From contig JAFXVN010000010.1 of NCBI GenBank assembly GCA_017524545.1, forward strand, positions 1 through 53,884: a DNA stretch of 53,884 nucleotides. Direction: 5' to 3'. Below, piece after piece: positions 17,092 to 27,307 of this stretch. Position 1 is the stretch's first letter. The number at the start of each line of letters is the position of its first letter. Under the pieces are notes generated by a model. That model was given only the letters and a program-made list of their open reading frames with translations, ran no database searches and was not told the origin of the DNA. Both the position numbers and the translations under genes were made by a program. The stretch is from Bacteroidaceae bacterium. GTDB lineage: Bacteria; Bacteroidota; Bacteroidia; Bacteroidales; Bacteroidaceae.

Positions 17092-17400
17092 ATGGAGGAT
17101 TATTCTGATTATTCAGCACCAGAACTGGTGAGGATGCTTGGCAGTCGATTCAAGGACTATCGGCTGAGAGCCAATATGACACAAAAAGAGGTAGCAGAGA
17201 TGGCTGGGATCTCTGTTCTGAGCGTCTATAGGTTTGAGAATGGAGCCGTGACAAGCATTTCGCTTAGCACGTTCCTGCTACTGATAAAGGCTGTGGGGTG
17301 TATCAATGATTTGAGCGAACTGATGCCAGAACAGCCAGTATCTCCATATTTGTATAAAGAAGCCAAGAAGATTCAACGTGTAAGACACAAGAAGGCATGA
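17092..17400 (+). CDS. hipB: HipB-like HTH antitoxin/regulator
   Basis: 102 residues. A Cro/C1-type helix-turn-helix occupies about 14-70 (LGSRFKDYRLRANMTQKEVAEMAGISVLSVYRFENG has the full pattern). In HipBA systems this protein binds the operator and the HipA kinase, silencing both the promoter and the toxin. Its stop codon overlaps the hipA start as ATGA (17397-17400), which indicates translational coupling and fixed stoichiometry. The basic C-terminus (KKIQRVRHKKA) is likely flexible. A full-consensus promoter lies upstream. Confidence 0.85.
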   Translation: MEDYSDYSAPELVRMLGSRFKDYRLRANMTQKEVAEMAGISVLSVYRFENGAVTSISLSTFLLLIKAVGCINDLSELMPEQPVSPYLYKEAKKIQRVRHKKA

Positions 17401-18884
17401 GAGAAGTTTTGAAAGTATTCCTATGGGGACAGGAAATAGGACGTTTGACTTGGCATGATGCCCGGAAGACTACATTCTTTGTATATAATCCGGAGTTCTT
17501 GAAAGGAACTTTGGATGTTGCTCCTTTGGCTGCTTCCATCCATCATCCATTGAGCACCCGCGCCATCTTTGGTGAGGCAGAGCGCATCTATCAGAAACTG
17601 CCTTCGTTCATCGCTGATTCTTTGCCGGACGCATGGGGCAACCTGCTTTTTGAACGATGGCAAAAGGACAAACATCTCACGGAACGAAGCGTGACTTCGA
17701 TTGAAAAACTGGCTTTCATCGGCAAGCGGGGCATGGGGGCCTTGGAGTTTGTGCCAGAGATTGAACGTGGTGCGATGATGGACAAGATTGATATCAAGGC
17801 ATTGGCAGACCTGGCTGAGAAGATAGCTATAGAGCGTGATAAGGTAAGGATTATGCCAGATGAGTCGCTTACTTTGCAATCGTTGATTGCTGTCGGCACC
17901 TCAGCAGGTGGTCGTCAGCCAAAAGGTATTATTGCCATCGATAGAGACACGGGCGCAATTCGTAGCGGACAGATTGATGTGGAACCCAATTTGGACTATT
18001 ATATTTTGAAGTTTGGCGACAAAGCTCGATCAACAGCAGAATTGGAACAGACTTACTACGAAATGGCAATAGCGGCTGGCATCTGCATGATGGAGTCGCG
18101 ACTGCTTGAGGTGGATGGGACAAAGCATTTTCTTACTAAACGATTCGACCGTAACGACGCGGGCAAATTGCATACACAGACTTTGGCAGCAATGGACCCC
18201 GATGCCGACAGTTACGAAAAGCTCTTTGCCGTATGCCGCAAACTACATCTGCCCGAGGTCGATTGTCAGGAACTCTATCGACGCATGGTGTTCAACATCC
18301 TTGCCAACAATACCGATGACCACCACAAGAACTTCACGTTTGTGATGAACCAACAAGGCATATGGCGACTGTCACCAGCCTACGATATGACCTATATCTT
18401 CGATACAGGCGGCTATCTGCCTAACAAAGAGCATTGTCTGACGATTGGCGGCAAGTTGCAAAGCATCACCCGCGAGGATGCTATCCTGTTTGCCCGTGAA
18501 AACGGCATTCGCCGACCTGATTCTATCATTCGTGACGTAGTTGCGGCCTTGAAGCAGTTCCATACCATTGCCACTAAACATGGTGTGTCGGAGCAATGGA
18601 CGGGCAGAGTCGAGACGACAATCATCAGCCATCTGAAAGCATGGGGCGAATGGAACGAAGCAGAAGCATCCGAATCAACCATCAACGGCCATTCCGTTTC
18701 CAACATCCGCGTCGAACAAGCCTACAAAGGCAATTTCCACCTGCTTGCAGAAATCGATGGCAAGGAACGCAAGTTCGTCATCGGCAAGAACAAAGAAGAA
18801 TATGCTTTGATAGAAAAGACTGGCATAGCCAACCTCACGGCTGACCAGCTTCTTGCTATGGCAGAGAAGCATTTCCAACGATAA
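17397..18884 (+). CDS. hipA: HipA-like serine/threonine kinase toxin
   Basis: 495 residues. An N-terminal HipA subdomain (VFLWGQEIGRL; SFIADSLPDAWGN) precedes the kinase core. A phosphate-binding loop GTSAGGRQPK is at about 167-176, the catalytic motif NTDDHHKNF gives Asp308 as the likely catalytic Asp, and SPAYDMT gives Asp330 for metal binding. Characterised HipA phosphorylates glutamyl-tRNA synthetase and causes growth arrest. The target here is unknown. The protein is longer than E. coli HipA (about 440) by a C-terminal part of about 70 residues that reads like an appended small domain (NGHSVSNIRVEQAYKGNFH). All key residues are present, so it should be active. Coupled to hipB by ATGA. 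Confidence 0.9.
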   Translation: MREVLKVFLWGQEIGRLTWHDARKTTFFVYNPEFLKGTLDVAPLAASIHHPLSTRAIFGEAERIYQKLPSFIADSLPDAWGNLLFERWQKDKHLTERSVTSIEKLAFIGKRGMGALEFVPEIERGAMMDKIDIKALADLAEKIAIERDKVRIMPDESLTLQSLIAVGTSAGGRQPKGIIAIDRDTGAIRSGQIDVEPNLDYYILKFGDKARSTAELEQTYYEMAIAAGICMMESRLLEVDGTKHFLTKRFDRNDAGKLHTQTLAAMDPDADSYEKLFAVCRKLHLPEVDCQELYRRMVFNILANNTDDHHKNFTFVMNQQGIWRLSPAYDMTYIFDTGGYLPNKEHCLTIGGKLQSITREDAILFARENGIRRPDSIIRDVVAALKQFHTIATKHGVSEQWTGRVETTIISHLKAWGEWNEAEASESTINGHSVSNIRVEQAYKGNFHLLAEIDGKERKFVIGKNKEEYALIEKTGIANLTADQLLAMAEKHFQR

Positions 18885-18971
18885 TACATCAAACAGAATT
18901 CTACATTTGCCGGAACAGAGGCCAGAAGGCCACGACCATAAGCCATTTTTGCCATTTCAAAAAAGATATTC

Positions 18972-19000
18972 TCCGAATCGCTTGGAGGTTCGGATTTTTC
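18972..19000 (+). terminator. Terminator after hipA
   Basis: TCCGAA (18972-18977) pairs with TTCGGA (18989-18994) and is followed by five T and then CTTTTT. Its loop contains the TTG used as the upstream box of the next promoter, so stop and start signals overlap. Confidence 0.65.
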
Positions 19001-19012
19001 TTTTTACCTTTG
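18982..19012 (+). promoter_or_regulatory. Promoter of the AT-rich five-gene operon
   Basis: TTG at 18982-18984, 20 bases, TACCTTTG at 19005-19012. Transcription would start near 19019, giving a leader of nearly 400 bases before the ATG at 19412. Confidence 0.7.
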
Positions 19013-19017
19013 CGGCA

Positions 19018-19411
19018 TCGTTGACTTATGTCAAGCTGAGGTTTGACTTACGTCGAGCTAAAGCTTCGCAAGCTCACATGTGGGCGGCGGGCGGTCTCTT
19101 ATATAAGAAAGACGTTTTCGAACGTCTGTCGTTGTGCGTCAAGAACTTCGCAAACTCTAACCTCACAACAGACAGATGACAACGAAGCGTCTGCGTGGTA
19201 CGTTCCTATATACCTTATTATATATAGTTCGTGCTGGCGTGGGCTTGCGAGCGTTGTCTATCCTGTGTGAGGTGGGCAATGCGAAGGCCTTTGACGCCAG
19301 GATAGGCTAAGAAGCAAAACACCTGCGCCTTTTTTGTATATCTGCGCGAACGATTAGCTTTAAAAGGATTGCCGACTTCGGGGTGTTTGCAGGCGGGAAA
19401 AAGGGGGAAAC
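19018..19411 (+). ncRNA. Long, highly folded 5' leader RNA (candidate new structured RNA)
   Basis: Multiple helices are visible. Tandem TTGACTTAYGTC hairpins start at 19021 and 19043. AGACGTT-TTCG-AACGTCT at 19110-19127 has a UUCG tetraloop. TCTGTC-GTTGTG at about 19125-19136 pairs with CACAAC-A-GACAGA at about 19164-19176, which is 12 pairs with one bulge and competes with the tetraloop helix. CTATATA/TATATAG lies at about 19206-19227, and CTATCCTG (19258-19265) pairs with CAGGATAG (19298-19305). A T6 run follows near 19330. It matches no riboswitch class I know. It also holds a 44-codon ORF. My recollection, not verified, is that this leader recurs in Prevotella genomes. Confidence 0.55.
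19176..19310 (+). CDS. 44-residue leader-peptide candidate
   Basis: Starts at the first ATG after an in-frame stop (TAA at 19158) and begins MTTKRLRGTFLYTLLYIVRAG. It is basic at the N-terminus with a short hydrophobic stretch, and ends DARIG-TAA. After this TAA the same frame stays open for 34 more codons and ends in TGA at 19413-19415, overlapping the ATG of the next gene as ATGA. The CTATCCTG/CAGGATAG helix falls on its last codons, so ribosome position could control the fold. No function is known. It may be a true small protein, a regulatory leader peptide, or an accident of RNA conservation. Confidence 0.4.
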   Translation: MTTKRLRGTFLYTLLYIVRAGVGLRALSILCEVGNAKAFDARIG

Positions 19412-19777
19412 ATGAAACCATGCAACTACGAACCTCTTGATTGTTGGCATAATACCAAAATTGTCATTTATTGGGTATTTATGCTTGGTAGCATTCTATT
19501 ATTCTTATGCATCACGTGTAAAGTCATGGATTACTGCAAATGTCATTGCCTGTGCAGTGCAGAGTTTGCCATATCCGTAATAATTCTGATTGCCGCCATT
19601 GGATTGCTTGTCTTATGGGGAGTCTTTATAAAAAACCTTATCCGTAACGAGTATGATAGGTATTATAAAGAAAAAGAGAGGGAAAGACATACTTGTGCTA
19701 AATACCATAAGAAAATTAAGAAAGCTAACATACAGGTGAAAGTCGAGGTGACACAACTCAAAAACTCCAGCAAATGA
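19412..19777 (+). CDS. Small membrane protein of unknown function
   Basis: 121 residues with two predicted membrane helices (about 12-36, IVIYWVFMLGSILLFLCI; about 50-75, ISVIILIAAIGLLVLWG). A short Cys-rich loop lies between them (CKVMDYCKCHCLC), and the C-terminal cytoplasmic tail is strongly charged (YYKEKERERH). I do not recognise a named family. It directly follows the folded leader, and its ATG overlaps the stop of the leader's second open stretch. Its own stop overlaps the start of the next gene as ATGA (19774-19777), so the two are probably made together. Base composition is AT-rich like the rest of this operon. Confidence 0.75.
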   Translation: MKPCNYEPLDCWHNTKIVIYWVFMLGSILLFLCITCKVMDYCKCHCLCSAEFAISVIILIAAIGLLVLWGVFIKNLIRNEYDRYYKEKERERHTCAKYHKKIKKANIQVKVEVTQLKNSSK

Positions 19778-21147
19778 GCAAGAATAGCATTAAGACAAGC
19801 ATCACGTTGGTGGATGAACTATTAGTTGACATCCTAGGTTCACTAATTCCGGGGTTTCTTTTTCTGATAACCCTCTTCTTCAGTGTGTTTATGCCCTTGT
19901 TTATTCTCAGCCGTTTCTCCATTAGTAGCTTGAAGGGGAAGGAAATACCTGGGGGGTTCTTTTGGGTTCTGTTGATAATTATACTTATACTGGCCTATGT
20001 GGTCGGTCACATTTTTTTTCGTGCAGATATTAAAGAGCCAGACGAGGTTGACATAAAAAGGGAAATTAAGAAAAGGATAAAAGACGTCCAAGAAATGTAC
20101 AAAGGTGATGATAGCGAATTTCGCGGCATGATAGAAAGGAAGCTACGGAAAACTATCATATCTCTGAACGATGCATGCATTAAAGTCCCTACTTTTCGCA
20201 TTTGGTACACTAATGGTCATTGTAATCCCCCCGCCCCATCTCCAACACGCGAAATGGCGGCCGACATATATTGGTGCTTCTGCAAATATTGCAATATGGC
20301 AGTAGAAATACTTGCCAAGAACAAACAGGGGATTCCCAAGTCAATATTACTGGGAATACTCTTTCCTGAGGAAGTATATCGCATTGAAAGAGAAAGGAAT
20401 CCAACCCAACTTTTTGACGCAAAGAACATTTGTGGAGGACTGCAATTTTATGATTTAAGTGAAGAAGTAAGAAAGATATGGAATAATGACTATAAGAATC
20501 CTTTGTCCAAGAGCAAAAGAATCGGAGAAAAGCCAATAGTCAACGAGCAGCTATTATGGATGGCCGTTTGCCTGTGTATCTTGGAGGTTCAGATAGAGAT
20601 TGGATGTATAAGTGTATCCGAAAGTTCCTTCCCATATACCTATTATTATAAATATTTGTTGAAACGCAACATCGTTAATCTGGTTGATGAGGTGAAATGG
20701 AATTCTAATGATAGCAGAAGCAAGAACATCATCAATGAATACAAGACTCACATGCAGTTGTTCGTACCAGAGAAATATGCCATCATTAACAAAAACGAAT
20801 CCCATGTTCGCATGTCATCATCTACATGGCATATGGCAAAAGTTTCAATAAAGATTGCAAGTATAATGGATGTCATTTCATTTCTTCTGATAATCTTTAT
20901 TAAGTTAAAAATATGTGAAATCCTCAACTCACAGATAAATTGCTTTAATGCTCTGTTAGCCATTGCCTTTCCTGCGTCTGTAAACGTATTCTGCATCTTT
21001 GCCAGATTCCGTATCGTTAAGTATATTCATTATCAACGCACCAGAGAAATCTTCCATGCTCTTTGTGCCTATGACCAGTGCAAGGATATAATTCAACATA
21101 GAAAATACCAACAATCAACGTCCATAGAAAACCAATTAAATGTATGA
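19774..21147 (+). CDS. Membrane protein of unknown function, partner of the preceding gene
   Basis: 457 residues. Two helices lie near the N-terminus (about 24-48, GSLIPGFLFLITLFFSVF; about 63-82) and two near the C-terminus (about 365-388, IMDVISFLLIIFIKL; about 392-412). Between them is a soluble region of about 280 residues with many charged helices (EVDIKREIKKRIKDVQEMY) and no motif I recognise. The stop is four bases before the start of the giant adhesin gene. The context suggests a role linked to the exported proteins downstream, for example assembly or signalling, but nothing in the sequence proves it. Confidence 0.75.
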   Translation: MSKNSIKTSITLVDELLVDILGSLIPGFLFLITLFFSVFMPLFILSRFSISSLKGKEIPGGFFWVLLIIILILAYVVGHIFFRADIKEPDEVDIKREIKKRIKDVQEMYKGDDSEFRGMIERKLRKTIISLNDACIKVPTFRIWYTNGHCNPPAPSPTREMAADIYWCFCKYCNMAVEILAKNKQGIPKSILLGILFPEEVYRIERERNPTQLFDAKNICGGLQFYDLSEEVRKIWNNDYKNPLSKSKRIGEKPIVNEQLLWMAVCLCILEVQIEIGCISVSESSFPYTYYYKYLLKRNIVNLVDEVKWNSNDSRSKNIINEYKTHMQLFVPEKYAIINKNESHVRMSSSTWHMAKVSIKIASIMDVISFLLIIFIKLKICEILNSQINCFNALLAIAFPASVNVFCIFARFRIVKYIHYQRTREIFHALCAYDQCKDIIQHRKYQQSTSIENQLNV

Positions 21148-21151
21148 CAAT

Positions 21152-24100
21152 ATGAAAAAAACATTTCTTTACCTTGTTTTATGCCTGCTTTGTGCTCTGA
21201 GTTACGGACAGACAGTGTATAAAACTGTCGAACCGATTAACGTTGGAGAAACGACGGTGTTGATTGGGTTGGAAAGTTCAAACCCCAACACCACTACCAC
21301 TAACTCATGGTCATGTAACAGTTCTATTGTTAGTTTAAGTAATAAAACTGGGGGGAGCTGTAAAGTGACGGGGCTTTCAGCAGGCACAGCTGAAGTGAAA
21401 TGCACAGTTACCGCTGTCAACCCTACCAGTGGAACTTCTTACCATTATTTAATTTATACGGTTACCGTTAATGACGTTCCTTTAGAACCTGGCACATGGT
21501 CGGGAAACACGCTCACCATCGGCGACAATGCCACAAGCACTACCAACAGGGCTCCGTATAATAATTACTGGACATACTCCACAAGCCAGATGCTGTACTC
21601 TCCTGCAGAAATAGGGAAAAGTGGAACTATAAACAGTATAGCATTCAAGGTGGCCAGCTCCAGCTCTTTTACGACAACAGACTTAAAGGTGTATTTGGGA
21701 CATAAATCCAGTATTTTCTCCAGCACGGGTGATTACATGACCAGCAGCAACTTGACGCTCGTCTATTCTGGTTCACCAACATTGGGGCAATCCACAGGAT
21801 GGGAAACGCTGACCTTCAATCAGGGTTCGTTCAACTATAATGGTACAGACAACCTTGTAGTTGTCGTTACCACGAAGAGCAGCAAATATAACACCTCCCT
21901 TAAATACTATTGCTATGCAGGCAGTGGCTATGTCCTTTCCCGCGGAAATGATAGTACCACAGGATATGGTGATATTACAAGCACTTCTTATGCCTATTCA
22001 GCATCGACAGAACGTCCTGCGATTCGAATGGTCTTTGCAGAGTCATCTTCTCCTACCAGCATCAACCTCAACACTACGAGTGTAAGCTTAGAAGTTGGTG
22101 GAACAAAACAATTGACTGCAACAGTTTTGCCCAGTGGAGCTTCTCAAAGTGTTACGTGGAGCGTTATCTCAGGCAGTAGTGTTGCTTCAGTCAGCTCAAC
22201 AGGCCTTGTCACAGCAAAAGCTACAGGCACAGCAACAGTTAGGGCTACATCCTCGGTTAAGAGTTCGGTATATAAAGATTGTACCGTGACAGTTACAAGT
22301 CCAATTTCTGGGGGGACAACGGTAACAATTGGAGGCAGTGCGACGAGCAGTATCATCGGTGTTCCATACGGCAGTTTATACTTTTATTCAACAGCCCAAA
22401 TGCTCTACACGCCGACCGAGATAGGAAGGAGTGGAACAATAAACGGCATTGCATTTAAGGTGGCAGACAGTAGACCTTCTTCTCATTCCAGCTCACAAGT
22501 CAAGGTGTATTTGGGCCACAAATCCAGCAACTTCTCCAGCGAAAATGACTATGTCGCAAGCAGCGATTTGACTTTGGTATATTCCGGCACTCCGAAATTG
22601 GGTCTAGCAACAGGCTGGGAGACAATTGTATTCAATCAGGGAACATTTACCTATAACGGCACCGACAATTTGGTGGTTGTTGTGACGAGGAAGAATTCCA
22701 TGTACACAAATTCTTATTATTGTTACTCAGGCAGTGGTTATACGCTTTATCGTCATAGCGATAACGATTCAACTTATGGCGACGTGACAAATACATCCAA
22801 TAGCTATAGCCCGACAACATGGCGTCCTGCCGTTCAACTGGGATTCGGAGTTTCTTATACCCCCACCATCAGCCTTAACACCACAAGCATAAGTTTGGGG
22901 GTTGGTGAGACAAAACAATTGACGGCAGCAGTTTTGCCCAATGGCATTTCACAGCAGAGCGTAACATGGAGTGTTGTCTCTGGCAGCGGTGTGGCTTCGG
23001 TCAGCTCATCAGGTCTTGTCACAGCCCAAGCTGCTGGCACGGCAACTATTCGGGCTGCTTTAACCCTGAACGGTTCTGTTTTTTATAGTGACTGTGCTGT
23101 GACAGTAAAGAATCCTCCATCTGTAGAGCCTGGCATTTGGTTCGGTGATACTCTGGTGACAATCGTTGGTGATTCTGTGGGCAATATTAATGTTGTGCCA
23201 TACGCCAATGGCTACAGATACTCAACGATACAGATGATCTATACCCCTACTGAGATAGGCAAGAGCGGAATGATAAACAGTATCGCATTTAAGGTGGCAA
23301 GCAGTTCTTCTTTTGCCACGTCAGAAGTAAAGATATATTTAGGTCACAAATCCAGCAAGTTCTCTGGCACAGGCGACTATGTAACAAGCAGCAATCTGAC
23401 TTTGGTATATTCGGGTTCTCCGACATTAGGACAGGCAACAGGTTGGGAGACATTGAAATTCAATCAGGGAACATTTACTTATAACGGCACAGACAACTTA
23501 GTTGTTGTGGTAACGAGAAAAAGCGGAGGAGATGAGTACAGTCTTAGATACAGCTATTATTATACAGGCATTGGCTATACTCTTTTACGTCGGAGCGATG
23601 GCTCTTCTGGCTATGGTGATGTGACAAATACATCATATTCCTATTCCACGTCGACATACCGTCCTGCGATACAAATGACATTATTAGGAGGAGCCATCAT
23701 CGCCATTAATTCAATCAATTTCCCCGATGTCAACTTCCGTAGCTACTTGCTCTCCCAAAGCTATGGCAGCGACGGGGTGCTGACACAAGATGAAATCAAC
23801 GGAGTTACTTCCCTGAAAGTCGGTTCCAAAAAGATAAGCAGTCTGAAAGGCATTGAGCATTTTACGGCGTTGACATACTTATCTTGCTACAGTAACCGAT
23901 TGACCACGCTGGACGTGTCAAAGAATACGGCGTTGAAAGAGTTATCTTGCTACAGTAACCAACTGACCACGCTGGACGTGTCAAAGAATACGGCGTTGAC
24001 ATCCTTATCTTGCGAGAGTAACCAACTGACCACACTGGATGTGTCAAAGAATACGGCGTTGACATCCTTATCTTGCGGGAGTAACCAACTGACCACACTG

Positions 24101-27100
24101 GATGTGTCAAAGAATACGGCGTTGACATCCTTATCTTGCTACAGTAACCAACTGACCACACTGGATGTGTCAAAGAATACGGCGTTGACATCCTTATCTT
24201 GCTACAGTAACCAACTGACCACACTGGATGTGTCAAAGAATACGGCTTTGACATCCTTATCTTGCGGGAGTAACCAACTGACCACACTGGATGTGTCAAA
24301 GAATACGGCGTTGACATCCTTATCTTGCGGGGGTAACCAACTGACCACACTGGATGTGTCAAAGAATACGGCGTTGACATCCTTATATTGCGAGAGTAGC
24401 CAACTGACCACGCTGGATGTGACAAAGAATACGGCGCTGAAGAGAATAGATTGTTCATATAATCAACTGGCCACATTAGATGTGTCAAAGAATACAGCAT
24501 TAATAGATTTAACGTGCTGCGTGAACAACATCAATGGGTTGAATATGGACAACTTGATAGCAGGACTACGTCAAAATAACACTAACAGCACCTATGAATT
24601 CAATGTCATCAGCACATATATATTTGGTAACAACAACGAAGGAAATGTCTGTACAAAAAAACAAGTGGCTGCCGTCAAGGCAAAAGGATGGATACCCAAC
24701 TACTTCAACTACAACGAGGGACTCTTTCAATTGATGTGGGATGAATATGAAGGCAGCGAAGACATAGAAAGCCTTGAAAGTATCTCATTGCCCGAAAGCA
24801 TACAGCTATCAGTTGGTGAGACGCAAACGCTGACACCGGTGTTCACACCAGCAAGTGCCGCGATGGGTGTCACATGGTCGTCAGAAGATGAGACAATCGC
24901 AACAGTTGATGAGTTTGAGGGTATCGTTACAGCTGTCAGTCCTGGTACGACAACAATCTACGTCGTGGCCGACGATGCGGAACACATGGCGTCATGCCAA
25001 GTGACTGTGACAGAGAAGGTATTGCATGATGGTGACACATTTGCGGCCAATACTGTGGAAGGAGTGAAAATGACCTATACAGTGATTAGTGCAGCGAACA
25101 AAACTTGTCTTGTTGGGACTAATAGCTATGCAAGTGCCATAAAAGATAATATCCAAGGGAGTATAACTATTCCCGAAGAAGTGTCAGGTTTCAGTGTGAC
25201 CAGCATCGGCAACTCTGCCTTCAATGGTTGCAGTGGCCTGACCTTCGTCACGATTCCCAACAGTGTGACGAGCATCGGCGAAAGAGCTTTCCGGAATTGC
25301 AGTGGCCTGACCTTCGTCACGATTCCCAACAGCGTGACGAGCATCGGCGAAAGAGCTTTCCAGAATTGCAGTGGCCTGACCTCTATAACAATCGGAAGTG
25401 GTATGACAACTATTGGCTATGATGCCTTTGCTGGATGCAGTAATTTGGCCTCTATAACAATTCCAGAGAGTGTGATTTACATGGAGAATTACACCTTCGA
25501 CGATACACCCTGGTTTGAAAACCAGCCAGATGGGTTGGTTTATGCAGGAAAAGTTCTCTATGACTATAAGGGTAGGATGCCAGAAGGAACTCATATTGAT
25601 ATCATGGAGGGAACTTTAGCAATAGCTGGATTTGCTTTTGAAAAGTGTGGAAACCTGACTTCCGTTACTATTCCCAATAGCGTGTTAGTGATAGGAAATA
25701 ATACCTTTTCTGATGGCGCAAATAATATAACATCAGTTACCATTGGAAGTGGTGTTAAAGAAATTGGAGAGGAAGCTTTTAGTAGTTGTAGAAGTCTAAC
25801 TACTGTAACCATCCCTAAGAATGTAGAGAGCATCGGTGAGAATGCCTTCTATGGCTGTAGTGGTCTGACAAGTATCACATCAGAAATAAAAGTGCCATTT
25901 GCTATTAACAAGAATGTTTTCCAATACTATGACGACAACAGCAATACTTACAAACCCCTGAATGCCACGCTTTATGTTCCATACGGTACAAAAGTCCTAT
26001 ATGAAGCCGCAAGCGGTTGGAATCAGTTCACGAACATCGTGGAGATGGAGGAAGAGTCCAGTGAGGTCATAGAGTATGACGGACTATATTACAGGATAGC
26101 CCAATCGGATGAAATAAACGCGGCAATAGGGCAGGAAGTCTTATCTGCGAATGTAGAGGTTGCGGTTGTCGTTGAAGCTCCACGAGGTCATAAGTATCAC
26201 GGCGATATAGTAATACCTGCTTCAATTACATACGAAAACAACACATACGCTGTGGTCGCTATTGATGAATGTGCATTTGCTGAATATAAGGAAATAGAAC
26301 TCACCAGCGTCATTATTCCAAACAGTGTGGTATATATCGCAGAAGAGGCATTTGTGGAAAGTTCAACACTGGAAAGGGTTGAGATACCCAACTCCGTAAA
26401 GTTCATTGGTGAAGATGTTTTTGGTGATTGTGAATCACTGAGTGAGATAGTCTCCTACATCCAAGAACCATTTGCTATAAATAACGACGTGTTCCGTAAC
26501 ATTGCAAATGATGCTACACTCTATGTGCCATTCGGAACCAAGGCATTATATGAAGCTACTGCAGGCTGGAACAGCATAGCAAACATTTTGGAGATGGAGC
26601 CTACAGAGATTGAAGTAACGGATATTTCACAGATGGATAATGTTGTGTATGTTGAAAATGTTGAAGGCTTTGCCGGTAATCAAGTAACATTGTCTGTAAG
26701 AATGAAAAATAGTGTTGCTGCTCAAGGTTTTGGATTTAACATGTATCTCCCTGATAGTATTAGTTTTGTCACAGATACAAACGGAAAGCCATTGGCAACA
26801 CTTTCTTCAGAGCGTAAAACAGAAGACATGAATGTGTTCTATATGTCTGATATCCTGCAAGATGGCTCACTAAAGGTGGCTGCTACATGTATCGGAAGTT
26901 CTTTCTTGTATAATGAAGGCGAAATTGTTTCCGTCACAGTAAAACTTTCAGATCAAATGGCTCCAGGCATCTATCCAATAATATTGAGAGAAGTTACAGT
27001 AACAGATGTAAATTCAAATGGAATCGACAATGAATTAATTGTCTCAACAATAACAATTCCTGACTATATTTTAGGTGATGTTAATGGAAGTGGAAAAGTT

Positions 27101-27307
27101 GATGTAACAGATCTAACTTCTGTTGCCAACTATATGTTTGACAATATTCCTTCTAAATTTAACTTCAAAGCAGCAGATGTATCTAAGCCTTATGAAAAGA
27201 TTAATGTATCAGACTTATCTGGAATTGCTAACATCATGTTTTATGGCACAGTAAACAGACCGTCAAATGCACGCACAAAAGTAACCAGTGAACGTGAGCC
27301 TCAATAA
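21152..27307 (+). CDS. Giant surface adhesin: Ig-like, leucine-rich, BspA, cohesin-like and dockerin-like domains
   Basis: 2051 residues. Start chosen at ATG 21152 because MKKTFLYLVLCLLCALSYGQ is a signal peptide. An ATG 12 bases upstream only adds MYDN. Order (approximate residues): Ig-like part 18-110; a beta module (YSTSQMLYSPAEIGKSGTIN type) three times at 113-295, 388-566 and 660-846, with Big_2 Ig-like domains between; ten 21-residue leucine-rich repeats 907-1116; another Big_2 1209-1288; BspA/LRR_5 units (VTIPNSVTSIGERAF) 1292-1819; a cohesin-like sandwich 1830-1969; a dockerin-like tail 1971-2033, whose first calcium loop (DVNGSGKVDVTD) is intact and second is degenerate. Family knowledge points to surface adhesion or glycan binding. 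The gene is AT-rich compared with the rest of the window. Confidence 0.88.
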   Translation: MKKTFLYLVLCLLCALSYGQTVYKTVEPINVGETTVLIGLESSNPNTTTTNSWSCNSSIVSLSNKTGGSCKVTGLSAGTAEVKCTVTAVNPTSGTSYHYLIYTVTVNDVPLEPGTWSGNTLTIGDNATSTTNRAPYNNYWTYSTSQMLYSPAEIGKSGTINSIAFKVASSSSFTTTDLKVYLGHKSSIFSSTGDYMTSSNLTLVYSGSPTLGQSTGWETLTFNQGSFNYNGTDNLVVVVTTKSSKYNTSLKYYCYAGSGYVLSRGNDSTTGYGDITSTSYAYSASTERPAIRMVFAESSSPTSINLNTTSVSLEVGGTKQLTATVLPSGASQSVTWSVISGSSVASVSSTGLVTAKATGTATVRATSSVKSSVYKDCTVTVTSPISGGTTVTIGGSATSSIIGVPYGSLYFYSTAQMLYTPTEIGRSGTINGIAFKVADSRPSSHSSSQVKVYLGHKSSNFSSENDYVASSDLTLVYSGTPKLGLATGWETIVFNQGTFTYNGTDNLVVVVTRKNSMYTNSYYCYSGSGYTLYRHSDNDSTYGDVTNTSNSYSPTTWRPAVQLGFGVSYTPTISLNTTSISLGVGETKQLTAAVLPNGISQQSVTWSVVSGSGVASVSSSGLVTAQAAGTATIRAALTLNGSVFYSDCAVTVKNPPSVEPGIWFGDTLVTIVGDSVGNINVVPYANGYRYSTIQMIYTPTEIGKSGMINSIAFKVASSSSFATSEVKIYLGHKSSKFSGTGDYVTSSNLTLVYSGSPTLGQATGWETLKFNQGTFTYNGTDNLVVVVTRKSGGDEYSLRYSYYYTGIGYTLLRRSDGSSGYGDVTNTSYSYSTSTYRPAIQMTLLGGAIIAINSINFPDVNFRSYLLSQSYGSDGVLTQDEINGVTSLKVGSKKISSLKGIEHFTALTYLSCYSNRLTTLDVSKNTALKELSCYSNQLTTLDVSKNTALTSLSCESNQLTTLDVSKNTALTSLSCGSNQLTTLDVSKNTALTSLSCYSNQLTTLDVSKNTALTSLSCYSNQLTTLDVSKNTALTSLSCGSNQLTTLDVSKNTALTSLSCGGNQLTTLDVSKNTALTSLYCESSQLTTLDVTKNTALKRIDCSYNQLATLDVSKNTALIDLTCCVNNINGLNMDNLIAGLRQNNTNSTYEFNVISTYIFGNNNEGNVCTKKQVAAVKAKGWIPNYFNYNEGLFQLMWDEYEGSEDIESLESISLPESIQLSVGETQTLTPVFTPASAAMGVTWSSEDETIATVDEFEGIVTAVSPGTTTIYVVADDAEHMASCQVTVTEKVLHDGDTFAANTVEGVKMTYTVISAANKTCLVGTNSYASAIKDNIQGSITIPEEVSGFSVTSIGNSAFNGCSGLTFVTIPNSVTSIGERAFRNCSGLTFVTIPNSVTSIGERAFQNCSGLTSITIGSGMTTIGYDAFAGCSNLASITIPESVIYMENYTFDDTPWFENQPDGLVYAGKVLYDYKGRMPEGTHIDIMEGTLAIAGFAFEKCGNLTSVTIPNSVLVIGNNTFSDGANNITSVTIGSGVKEIGEEAFSSCRSLTTVTIPKNVESIGENAFYGCSGLTSITSEIKVPFAINKNVFQYYDDNSNTYKPLNATLYVPYGTKVLYEAASGWNQFTNIVEMEEESSEVIEYDGLYYRIAQSDEINAAIGQEVLSANVEVAVVVEAPRGHKYHGDIVIPASITYENNTYAVVAIDECAFAEYKEIELTSVIIPNSVVYIAEEAFVESSTLERVEIPNSVKFIGEDVFGDCESLSEIVSYIQEPFAINNDVFRNIANDATLYVPFGTKALYEATAGWNSIANILEMEPTEIEVTDISQMDNVVYVENVEGFAGNQVTLSVRMKNSVAAQGFGFNMYLPDSISFVTDTNGKPLATLSSERKTEDMNVFYMSDILQDGSLKVAATCIGSSFLYNEGEIVSVTVKLSDQMAPGIYPIILREVTVTDVNSNGIDNELIVSTITIPDYILGDVNGSGKVDVTDLTSVANYMFDNIPSKFNFKAADVSKPYEKINVSDLSGIANIMFYGTVNRPSNARTKVTSEREPQ
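23870..24499 (+). repeat. Ten tandem 63-base units inside the adhesin gene
   Basis: Copies begin every 63 bases (23870, 23933, 23996 and so on). Each encodes a 21-residue leucine-rich unit with LTTLDVSKNTA as its constant part. Central copies are almost identical in DNA, differing mainly at the codon after the Cys (Tyr, Glu or Gly). Edge copies are more diverged, as expected for recent expansion in the middle. Confidence 0.92.

Follow-up and report, generated by a model that had tools for sequence, protein, structure and literature searches.

A multiply pseudoknotted leader RNA of the class Bacteroidia, with features of a transcription attenuator, upstream of accessory genes

Terminator/antiterminator riboswitches and attenuators share a structured 5′ leader, an intrinsic terminator and an alternative helix that takes up the 5′ arm of that terminator. 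EAR, JUMPstart/ops with RfaH and the LoaP leaders are RNAs or elements that lie 5′ of surface and acquired genes and are linked to antitermination. A further group, the large structured bacterial RNAs ROOL, GOLLD and OLE, have loop–loop contacts and mostly stand alone. EAR (epsC) and JUMPstart/ops are listed under the Rfam numbers RF01735 and RF01707 (table in PMC2864571).

Here, we describe a leader RNA in a 53,884 nt contig of a Bacteroidaceae bacterium (JAFXVN010000010.1), the whole of which we refer to as the window. The element resembles riboswitches and attenuators in its structured 5′ leader, its terminator, the alternative helix on the terminator 5′ arm and the gene just downstream, but differs from them in that the leader matches no Rfam sensor fold, a ‘clasp’ of three helices is built into the terminator loop, and the functions encoded downstream are mixed. 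It shares with EAR, JUMPstart/ops and the LoaP leaders a position upstream of surface or acquired genes; unlike those elements, which belong to other phyla, it has no covariance-model match, its pseudoknotted fold is far larger and, by phyletic pattern, it does not require UpxY. Like ROOL, GOLLD and OLE, it is large and structured with loop–loop contacts, yet the Rfam scans gave no match to them and the present RNA is a leader. Flavo-1 (RF01705), Bacteroidales-1 (RF01693), Bacteroides-1 (RF01694) and 6S-flavo (RF01685) are structured RNAs of the same phylum, but none matched in 20 loci at the gathering threshold or in 17 further loci at E≤1.

Searches with the Rfam models gave the same picture throughout. 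Rfam 15 at curated thresholds had no matches in the window, the 20 loci at the gathering threshold yielded only two tRNAs, and ARAGORN found no tRNA in the window. One weak match, on the opposite strand, appeared at E≤5 within 18950–19500, and the 17 divergent loci (including 12 from other orders) gave nothing at E≤1 on the element strand at the element; a single sub-threshold antisense match to a miRNA model was seen at locus L271. Membership of an Rfam family, including Flavo-1, was therefore rejected, and the view in an earlier note on this DNA, that no described RNA family lies behind the leader, holds for Rfam 15 on the element strand. Among the titles and abstract openings listed in searches of open-licence PMC papers, none described such a leader, its clasp, its antiterminator or its leader role. 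The element is a real, class-wide structured leader RNA without an Rfam 15 match and, because no model matches this RNA of about 300 nt on its strand, it is invisible to routine annotation.

It is possible that part of the element has been sighted computationally before, perhaps as HMP2_1881 or the Bacteroides-2 motif. HMP2_1881 is a 108 nt candidate RNA, mostly from Bacteroidetes and near radical SAM genes, that was expressed in 13 of 13 occurrences (PMC8040213, Fremin and Bhatt 2021). Our leader has a core of similar size (about 110 nt), and CXXX-repeat radical-SAM targets lie behind some of its copies, so that identity with HMP2_1881 is only a lead. The Bacteroides-2 motif stands without an Rfam number in the table of PMC2864571.

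In the window, sequence inspection found a Bacteroidetes-type −7 promoter box (TACCTTTG; consensus TAnnTTTG) at 19005–19012 on the forward strand, in agreement with the promoter proposed earlier, and a weak −33-like TTG near 18982, about 20 nt 5′ of the box. Some 400 bases separate the box from the start of a small membrane-protein ORF at 19412 (Table 1). Among the homologues, 161 of 178 copies have the same box at a distance of 60–190 nt on the 5′ side of the P3b loop, compared with 6.7% in shuffles. Directly 5′ of the leader, on the same strand, is an HTH (HipB-like) and HipA-like gene pair (17092–18884). Both membrane ORFs downstream had Pfam matches below threshold only, the longer one having a sub-threshold likeness to SieB superinfection exclusion (E 0.018), and they are followed at 21140–27307 by a surface-type protein of 2055 aa with Big_2 Ig-like domains and LRR repeats within its first 987 aa.

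Table 1. Features of the leader and its flanks in the window (RNA letters for RNA strands)
Feature	Position	Strand	Sequence	Partner, evidence or remark
Dispersed repeat of about 25 bp	19043..19068	+	TTGACTTACGTCGAGCTAAAGCTTCG	inside leader 5′ end
AT 5′ strand (putative antiterminator)	19067..19077	+	CGCAAGCUCAC	11 bp with 19239–19249
P1 local hairpin	19072..19085	+	GCUCA:UGGGC	62/112 copies vs 53% shuffled
Local UUCG hairpin	19111..19126	+	GACGUU-UUCG-AACGUC	5′ arm also forms P2; sequence
P2 5′ strand	19111..19117	+		pairs with 19185–19191; scan z 7.8
P3 5′ strand	19126..19136	+		pairs with 19164–19175; scan z 13
N5 5′ strand	19137..19142	+	CGUCAA	pairs with 19291–19296
P3b hairpin	19143..19157	+	loop CUUCGCA (19146–19152)	kisses 19280–19286
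N6 5′ strand	19160..19167	+	ACCUCACA	pairs with 19266–19273; overlaps P3 3′ strand
P3 3′ strand	19164..19175	+	CACAACAGACAG	own-versus-other test
44-codon ORF	19176..19310	+		ends TAA; not conserved, judged fortuitous
PK 5′ strand	19178..19184	+	GACAACG	pairs with 19252–19258
P2 3′ strand	19185..19191	+	AAGCGUC	56-copy pair counts
P4 variable apical hairpin	19197..19235	+	GGUACG:CGUGCU and CUAUAUA:UAUAUAG	scan z 11 and 9.5
P5 terminator 5′ arm	19236..19243	+	GGCGUGGG	pairs with 19322–19329
AT 3′ strand	19239..19249	+	GUGGGCUUGCG	shares 5 nt with P5
PK 3′ strand	19252..19258	+	CGUUGUC	56-copy pair counts
P6 5′ strand	19258..19264	+	CUAUCCU	pairs with 19299–19305; two-sided changes at 5/6 counted pairs
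N6′ strand	19266..19273	+	UGUGAGGU	own-versus-other test
P6b hairpin	19275..19289	+	GGC-AAUGCGAAG-GCC, loop UGCGAAG	kisses P3b loop
N5′ strand	19291..19296	+	UUGACG	own-versus-other test
P6 3′ strand	19299..19305	+	AGGAUAG	56-copy pair counts
P7 5′ strand	19317..19323	+	AAACACC	overlaps 2 nt of P5 3′ arm; pairs with 19382–19388
P5 3′ arm and U-run	19322..19335	+	CCUGCGCC (19322–19329), UUUUUU (19330–19335)	intrinsic terminator
Post-terminator hairpin with P7 3′ strand	19371..19394	+	GCC...GGC; GGUGUUU (19382–19388)	own-versus-other test
Small membrane-protein ORF, 121 aa	19412..19777	+		similar ORF behind L007 leader, by eye
Second membrane ORF, 457 aa	19774..21147	+		similar ORF behind L009 leader, by eye

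The comparative evidence comes from several sets of copies. A motif that fixes part of the P6b loop picked 188 unique elements, of which 186 were usable for counting loop complements (two were too short), 179 for an ‘own-versus-other’ helix test, in which stems of at least 6 bp inside each copy are compared with those formed between copies, and 178 (114 non-redundant) for an unbiased scan. The antiterminator tests used 166 copies, 12 without a promoter box being left out, and the position of downstream ORFs was assessed in 154 copies with enough flank. In the loop-complement and own-versus-other counts, a chance CUUCGCA lying more to the 5′ side served as the anchor for the window copy (L006); in the scan that copy was placed correctly. 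Alignment A3 holds the window and 55 of 58 listed copies (L111, L123 and one of two L182 entries were left out), and alignment A4 holds L006, L233 and 76 of 79 listed copies (without L118, L230 and L231), the L006 row being short, with most of the P5 5′ arm absent. Protein set A2 comprises 99 of 101 listed ORFs from 116 non-redundant copies, two L182 entries having been left out.

Judged by covariation, the leader is a multiply pseudoknotted domain of approximately 250–330 nt in which nine or more helices covary, several pseudoknots among them. A typical copy consists of the −7 box, this domain, an intrinsic terminator and a co-directional gene start within about 100 nt. Folding of 19010–19415 as a single sequence gave z = −3.56, with none of 100 shuffles as good. 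For 35 pairs belonging to P2, PK, P5, P6 and the kissing loops, 92.4% of cells across 56 diverse copies were paired; two-sided changes occurred at 21 of these 35 pairs, beyond all 500 shuffles, and 183 cells were changed on both sides against 64.5 in shuffles. Pairing fell to 38–50% when partners were slid by one to three columns. The folded leader seen in the single sequence is thus real, and its reading as a regulatory leader with partly exclusive helices finds support.

Individual helices differ in how strongly each test speaks for them. The own-versus-other test found P2 in all 179 copies (99% between copies), P6 in 179 (92%), P5 in 176 (90%), PK in 170 (88%) and P3 in 169 against 56% between copies; where pairing between copies is high, the sequences themselves are conserved, so that this test is weak there and the counted pairs help. 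For PK, the two parts were formed in 92.5% and 86.0% of cells, with two-sided changes at five of seven pairs, while P2 showed two-sided changes in four of its seven counted pairs, its two inner pairs being formed in just 64% of cells. P4 varies in length between copies. The scan over pairs of segments, with no helix specified beforehand, picked up N5, N6, P3, P6, P4, the kissing loops, P2, P3b and P5-type signals. In the window, P3 and N6 overlap by a few bases and may therefore alternate there.

The most distinctive part of the fold is the clasp, in which covariation shows three helices linking the P3b and P6b hairpins, the loop:loop contact being flanked by N5:N5′ and N6:N6′. An N5:N5′ stem of at least 6 bp was present in 172 of 179 copies versus 23% between copies (scan z 40), and an N6:N6′ stem of that length in 175 of 179 versus 18% (scan z 29). 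The two loops contain an exact 7 nt complement in 181 of the 186 usable copies; two more have 6 nt and three, namely L118, L121 and L194 (which ends at a contig end), have none. Nine loop variants were found, each matched by its own partner loop, and the clasp sequences vary between copies yet remain complementary. As copies were chosen partly by the P6b loop, a better test of the loops is a divergent set found by models that lack the P3b strand, comprising 12 loci from other orders (10 genomes), L251 from the same family and five loci from the window's own genome. Here, loop complements of 6–8 nt, many of quite different sequence, were present in 18 of 18, with at least 6 bp of N5 in 17 of 18 (L258 has 4) and of N6 in 18 of 18, all as counts without a shuffle background. 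The terminator stem P5 encloses P6, which places the clasp on top of the terminator. To our knowledge, a fold of this kind, with two hairpins held by a loop–loop helix between two flanking helices and a terminator built around one of them, is unfamiliar.

The intrinsic terminator is conserved with compensatory changes, as a transcription attenuator calls for: of the eight P5 pairs, seven are formed by every one of the 50 genus copies in alignment A1, and the remaining pair by 49, where one gap occurs. The scan also revealed a long-range signal between the 5′ part of the RNA and the linker after the P5 5′ arm (z 7.0). Under a strict test, in which the first 45 nt, counted from the promoter box, must form 8 bp or more with the P5-arm/linker region, this helix (AT) was present in 119 of 166 copies versus 39% between copies (z 12.7), or 68 of 103 non-redundant copies versus 32%; the other 47 of 166 lack it. 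A looser test gave 145 of 166 against 68–69% between copies, a background so high that much of this pairing stems from conserved sequence. The paired strands differ widely between copies yet remain complementary, for example CAGUUAGCCCAC:GUGGGCUAACUG, CAAGCCAGCC:GGCUGGCUUG, GCAGAAGCC:GGCUUCUGC and CUCACGCCGA:UCGGCGUGGG.

Among 112 copies with a 5′-located AT, the helix overlaps the P5 arm by at least 2 nt in 94 and by at least 3 nt in 76, with no overlap in 15; an antiterminator-like helix that overlaps the terminator arm is therefore a property of most copies, not all. The predicted AT duplex was stronger than P5 in 75 of 94 copies. Pairing of the RNA 5′ end with the terminator 5′ arm and linker thus looks like an antiterminator, and as AT can form before the terminator 3′ arm is made, as an antiterminator needs to, we read the element as an attenuator in which AT and P5 would exclude one another in the cell. 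Nested folding of the window sequence produced neither AT nor P5, since a long rod containing the clasp helices is preferred, and was rejected as evidence for a switch. The P1 hairpin, considered as a competitor of AT, was not above shuffles. Beyond the terminator, a further helix, P7, was present with at least 6 bp in 131 of 179 copies versus 47% between copies (z 10.6) and, being made after the terminator, could act only in read-through RNA.

Taken together, the comparative data argue for a cis-acting leader RNA of an undescribed family that probably controls transcription by attenuation, a reading to which we assign a probability of about 0.72.

The earlier note had also raised the option of a leader peptide in this region. 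That proposal holds that translation of a 44-codon ORF, read-through of its stop codon or reinitiation switches the fold and couples the next gene. The arrangement itself is present in the window: the ORF at 19176–19310 ends in TAA, after which another 34 codons follow in frame before a TGA, and this TGA forms ATGA together with the start of the ORF at 19412. The layout recurs, with TGA for TAA, in L036, which is 88% identical and alone among 24 other aligned copies retains the 34-codon continuation to ATGA. Elsewhere it disintegrates. The 25 long aligned copies share sequence blocks, the 5′ promoter and the 3′ terminator, whereas the frame of the small ORF breaks. Its length differs from 44 codons in 22 of the 24 (range 7–66 codons; L020 and L042 have no ORF ATG), through small indels and the variable apical hairpin; 44 codons are kept solely in L007 and L036, both with TGA for TAA, and 23 of 24 interrupt the 44+34-codon arrangement on one side of the stop or the other.

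The exact ATGA joining, which had been taken as a sign of translation, is kept in just one of 24 copies, and the ORF pattern does not exceed what chance and relatedness give; many genes begin with ATGA (ATGAAA...), so the overlap by itself is weak evidence. Two observations had been named in advance as together counting against the note's reading, frame-breaking indels on both sides of the stop and helices devoid of compensatory change: the indels are there, but compensatory changes are abundant, and the sequence changes follow the base pairs. A conserved short ORF governing the fold, the mark of a leader-peptide attenuator, was thus not found in the 24 aligned copies, and we rejected leader peptide, read-through and reinitiation alike on account of the broken frames, regarding them as hardly credible. 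The earlier note had therefore picked out the right object, a folded leader RNA, and the wrong part of it.

The element is widespread in the class. A DNA search of the genus matched 54 of 139 genomes, many of the matches being merely a short repeat or core fragment. With covariance models, whose E-values are rough by the tool's own statement, R1 (the core, 115 positions) matched 110 of the 139 genus genomes and, across the order, 45 of 295; R2 (built from 78 diverse copies) matched 76 of 295 genomes, in 50 of 184 genera, of the order. In a draw of 295 genomes from the class, R2 matched 14, of which nine belong to other orders. A draw of 296 genomes from the phylum contained five matched by R1: the window's own and four with E-values close to the threshold (4e-4 to 9e-4), among which L233 is a true member by its clasp. 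L234 and L235, weak phylum matches without a clasp by eye, were left out of the counts. Named carriers among at least 115 matching stretches include Bacteroides, Phocaeicola, Paraprevotella, Prevotella and Xylanibacter; cultured examples are Phocaeicola massiliensis DSM 17679 (L169) and Paraprevotella clara YIT 11840 (L116). The family is thus not restricted to Prevotella, the genus mentioned in the earlier note, and spans Bacteroidales and other orders of the class. Four of 80 titles among the matches listed (L117, L131, L140 and L168) are of contigs named as Clostridia bins, through misbinning or transfer. A phage collection held no match and viral contigs only three stretches with the element pattern; a phage origin was accordingly rejected.

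Genomes carry up to 14 copies, and R2 found nine loci in the window's own genome. Such multiplicity, together with varied neighbours and a tandem pair in one genome (L041), would suit a mobile or recombination element, such as a DNA hairpin, MITE or attC-like site, rather than an RNA switch; so would the window and L007, which by eye share the leader and a similar downstream gene next to different upstream genes. Against this, G–U pairs occur in the helices, as in RNA, and the promoter, the terminator and the spacing to the start codon are conserved, which makes a mobile element very improbable. The two L041 leaders (G031 contig 92) are separated by approximately 1.2 kb and each is followed by a separate ORF; one of the leaders has an extra repeated hairpin insert in P4. 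The repeat of about 25 bp at the leader 5′ end is present in the window and L008 and absent from the other 23 aligned copies; it also stands alone in many genomes of the genus, and has just two occurrences in the window's own genome at up to three mismatches. The L251 copy lies approximately 1.4 kb from a match to the rteR sRNA (RF04181), an RNA familiar from conjugative transposons.

The position of the element relative to genes bears on whether it acts in cis. In 128 of 154 copies, a co-directional ORF of 80 aa or more has its ATG no further than 130 nt past the U-run, compared with 23 of 154 on the antisense upstream side and 249 of 770 at random positions; 26 of 154 copies have no such ORF nearby. 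Among the 181 of 188 copies whose ORF reaches 50 aa, the median distance from U-run to chosen ATG is 74 nt. A small RNA that acts in trans, equipped with a promoter and a terminator of its own and merely located upstream of genes, would account for the promoter, compact fold and terminator and would explain why no common function is found downstream. Yet the closeness of the co-directional gene, the P7 pairing that spans the terminator and the copy-specific clasp sequences, which suggest intramolecular use, all speak against it, and we consider it distinctly improbable beside a cis-acting leader.

Proteins encoded behind the leader are varied. By a crude rule, 62 of 99 non-redundant downstream proteins have a signal-like N-terminus, versus 106 of 306 other ORFs at the same loci (Fisher P 1e-6). 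Families among the 99 include BspA-type LRR_5 (six), CarboxypepD_reg (five), DUF3575 (three), C10 peptidases (two) and CXXX-repeat radical-SAM targets (TIGR04117; six), and there were single matches to defence models, for example BrxP, a type III methyltransferase, SspD and AbiH. By eye, Tat-like, Cys-rich CXXX-repeat peptides follow the leader at L003, L045, L129, L131, L161, L172, L177, L217 and L225, and L128 and L228 have a radical-SAM-like ORF further downstream. Three divergent leaders of the window's own genome (L269, L271 and L272; contigs 48, 40 and 76) precede restriction-modification-like proteins that read by eye like DNA methyltransferases and a restriction protein; these neighbours suggest that anti-phage genes fall within the regulon. 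As the downstream genes have no single common function, they suggest no ligand.

Mixed downstream genes of this kind, encoding surface, RiPP-precursor, polysaccharide and defence functions and in one case an UpxY-family protein itself, are also what might be expected of a processive antitermination element read by a NusG paralogue in the style of UpxY, LoaP or RfaH, licensing acquired genes; analogous elements precede acquired operons elsewhere. However, of the 76 genomes of the order that carry the leader, 25 lack an UpxY-family match at E≤1e-20, and UpxY is about as frequent in carriers (51 of 76) as in other genomes (126 of 219; Fisher P=0.17). UpxY as an obligatory partner is therefore not supported, and a NusG-paralogue element seems an unlikely description of the leader.

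Our data are consistent with a model of attenuation in which transcription would start just 5′ of the leader, at the predicted promoter. The nascent RNA would then fold so that P3/P3b clasps P6/P6b through the kissing loop and its two flanking helices, as covariation indicates, and in most copies the RNA 5′ end would pair with the terminator 5′ arm and the linker that follows. This pairing may hinder P5, allowing RNA polymerase to continue into the gene; if P5 formed instead, the U-run would end the transcript at about 19335. In read-through RNA, the hairpin before the start codon would pair with sequence beside the terminator 3′ arm, a contact supported by covariation that perhaps stabilizes the open state or shapes translation initiation. 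Candidates for what selects between the states are a small molecule, an RNA-binding or elongation protein, and the speed of co-transcriptional folding.

More tentatively, the family could form a class-wide RNA control layer for accessory genes, with one architecture in many copies per genome, copy-specific three-helix clasp codes that ensure self-only folding, and one common signal, a ligand or an elongation factor, that sets whether transcription terminates or reads through into exported, RiPP, polysaccharide and anti-phage genes. If true, such a layer would parallel, by means of RNA, the way in which RfaH and LoaP control acquired genes. The leader offers a directly testable switch, and points to an unrecognized signal that controls, in abundant gut bacteria, many genes for surface proteins, RiPP precursors and defence.
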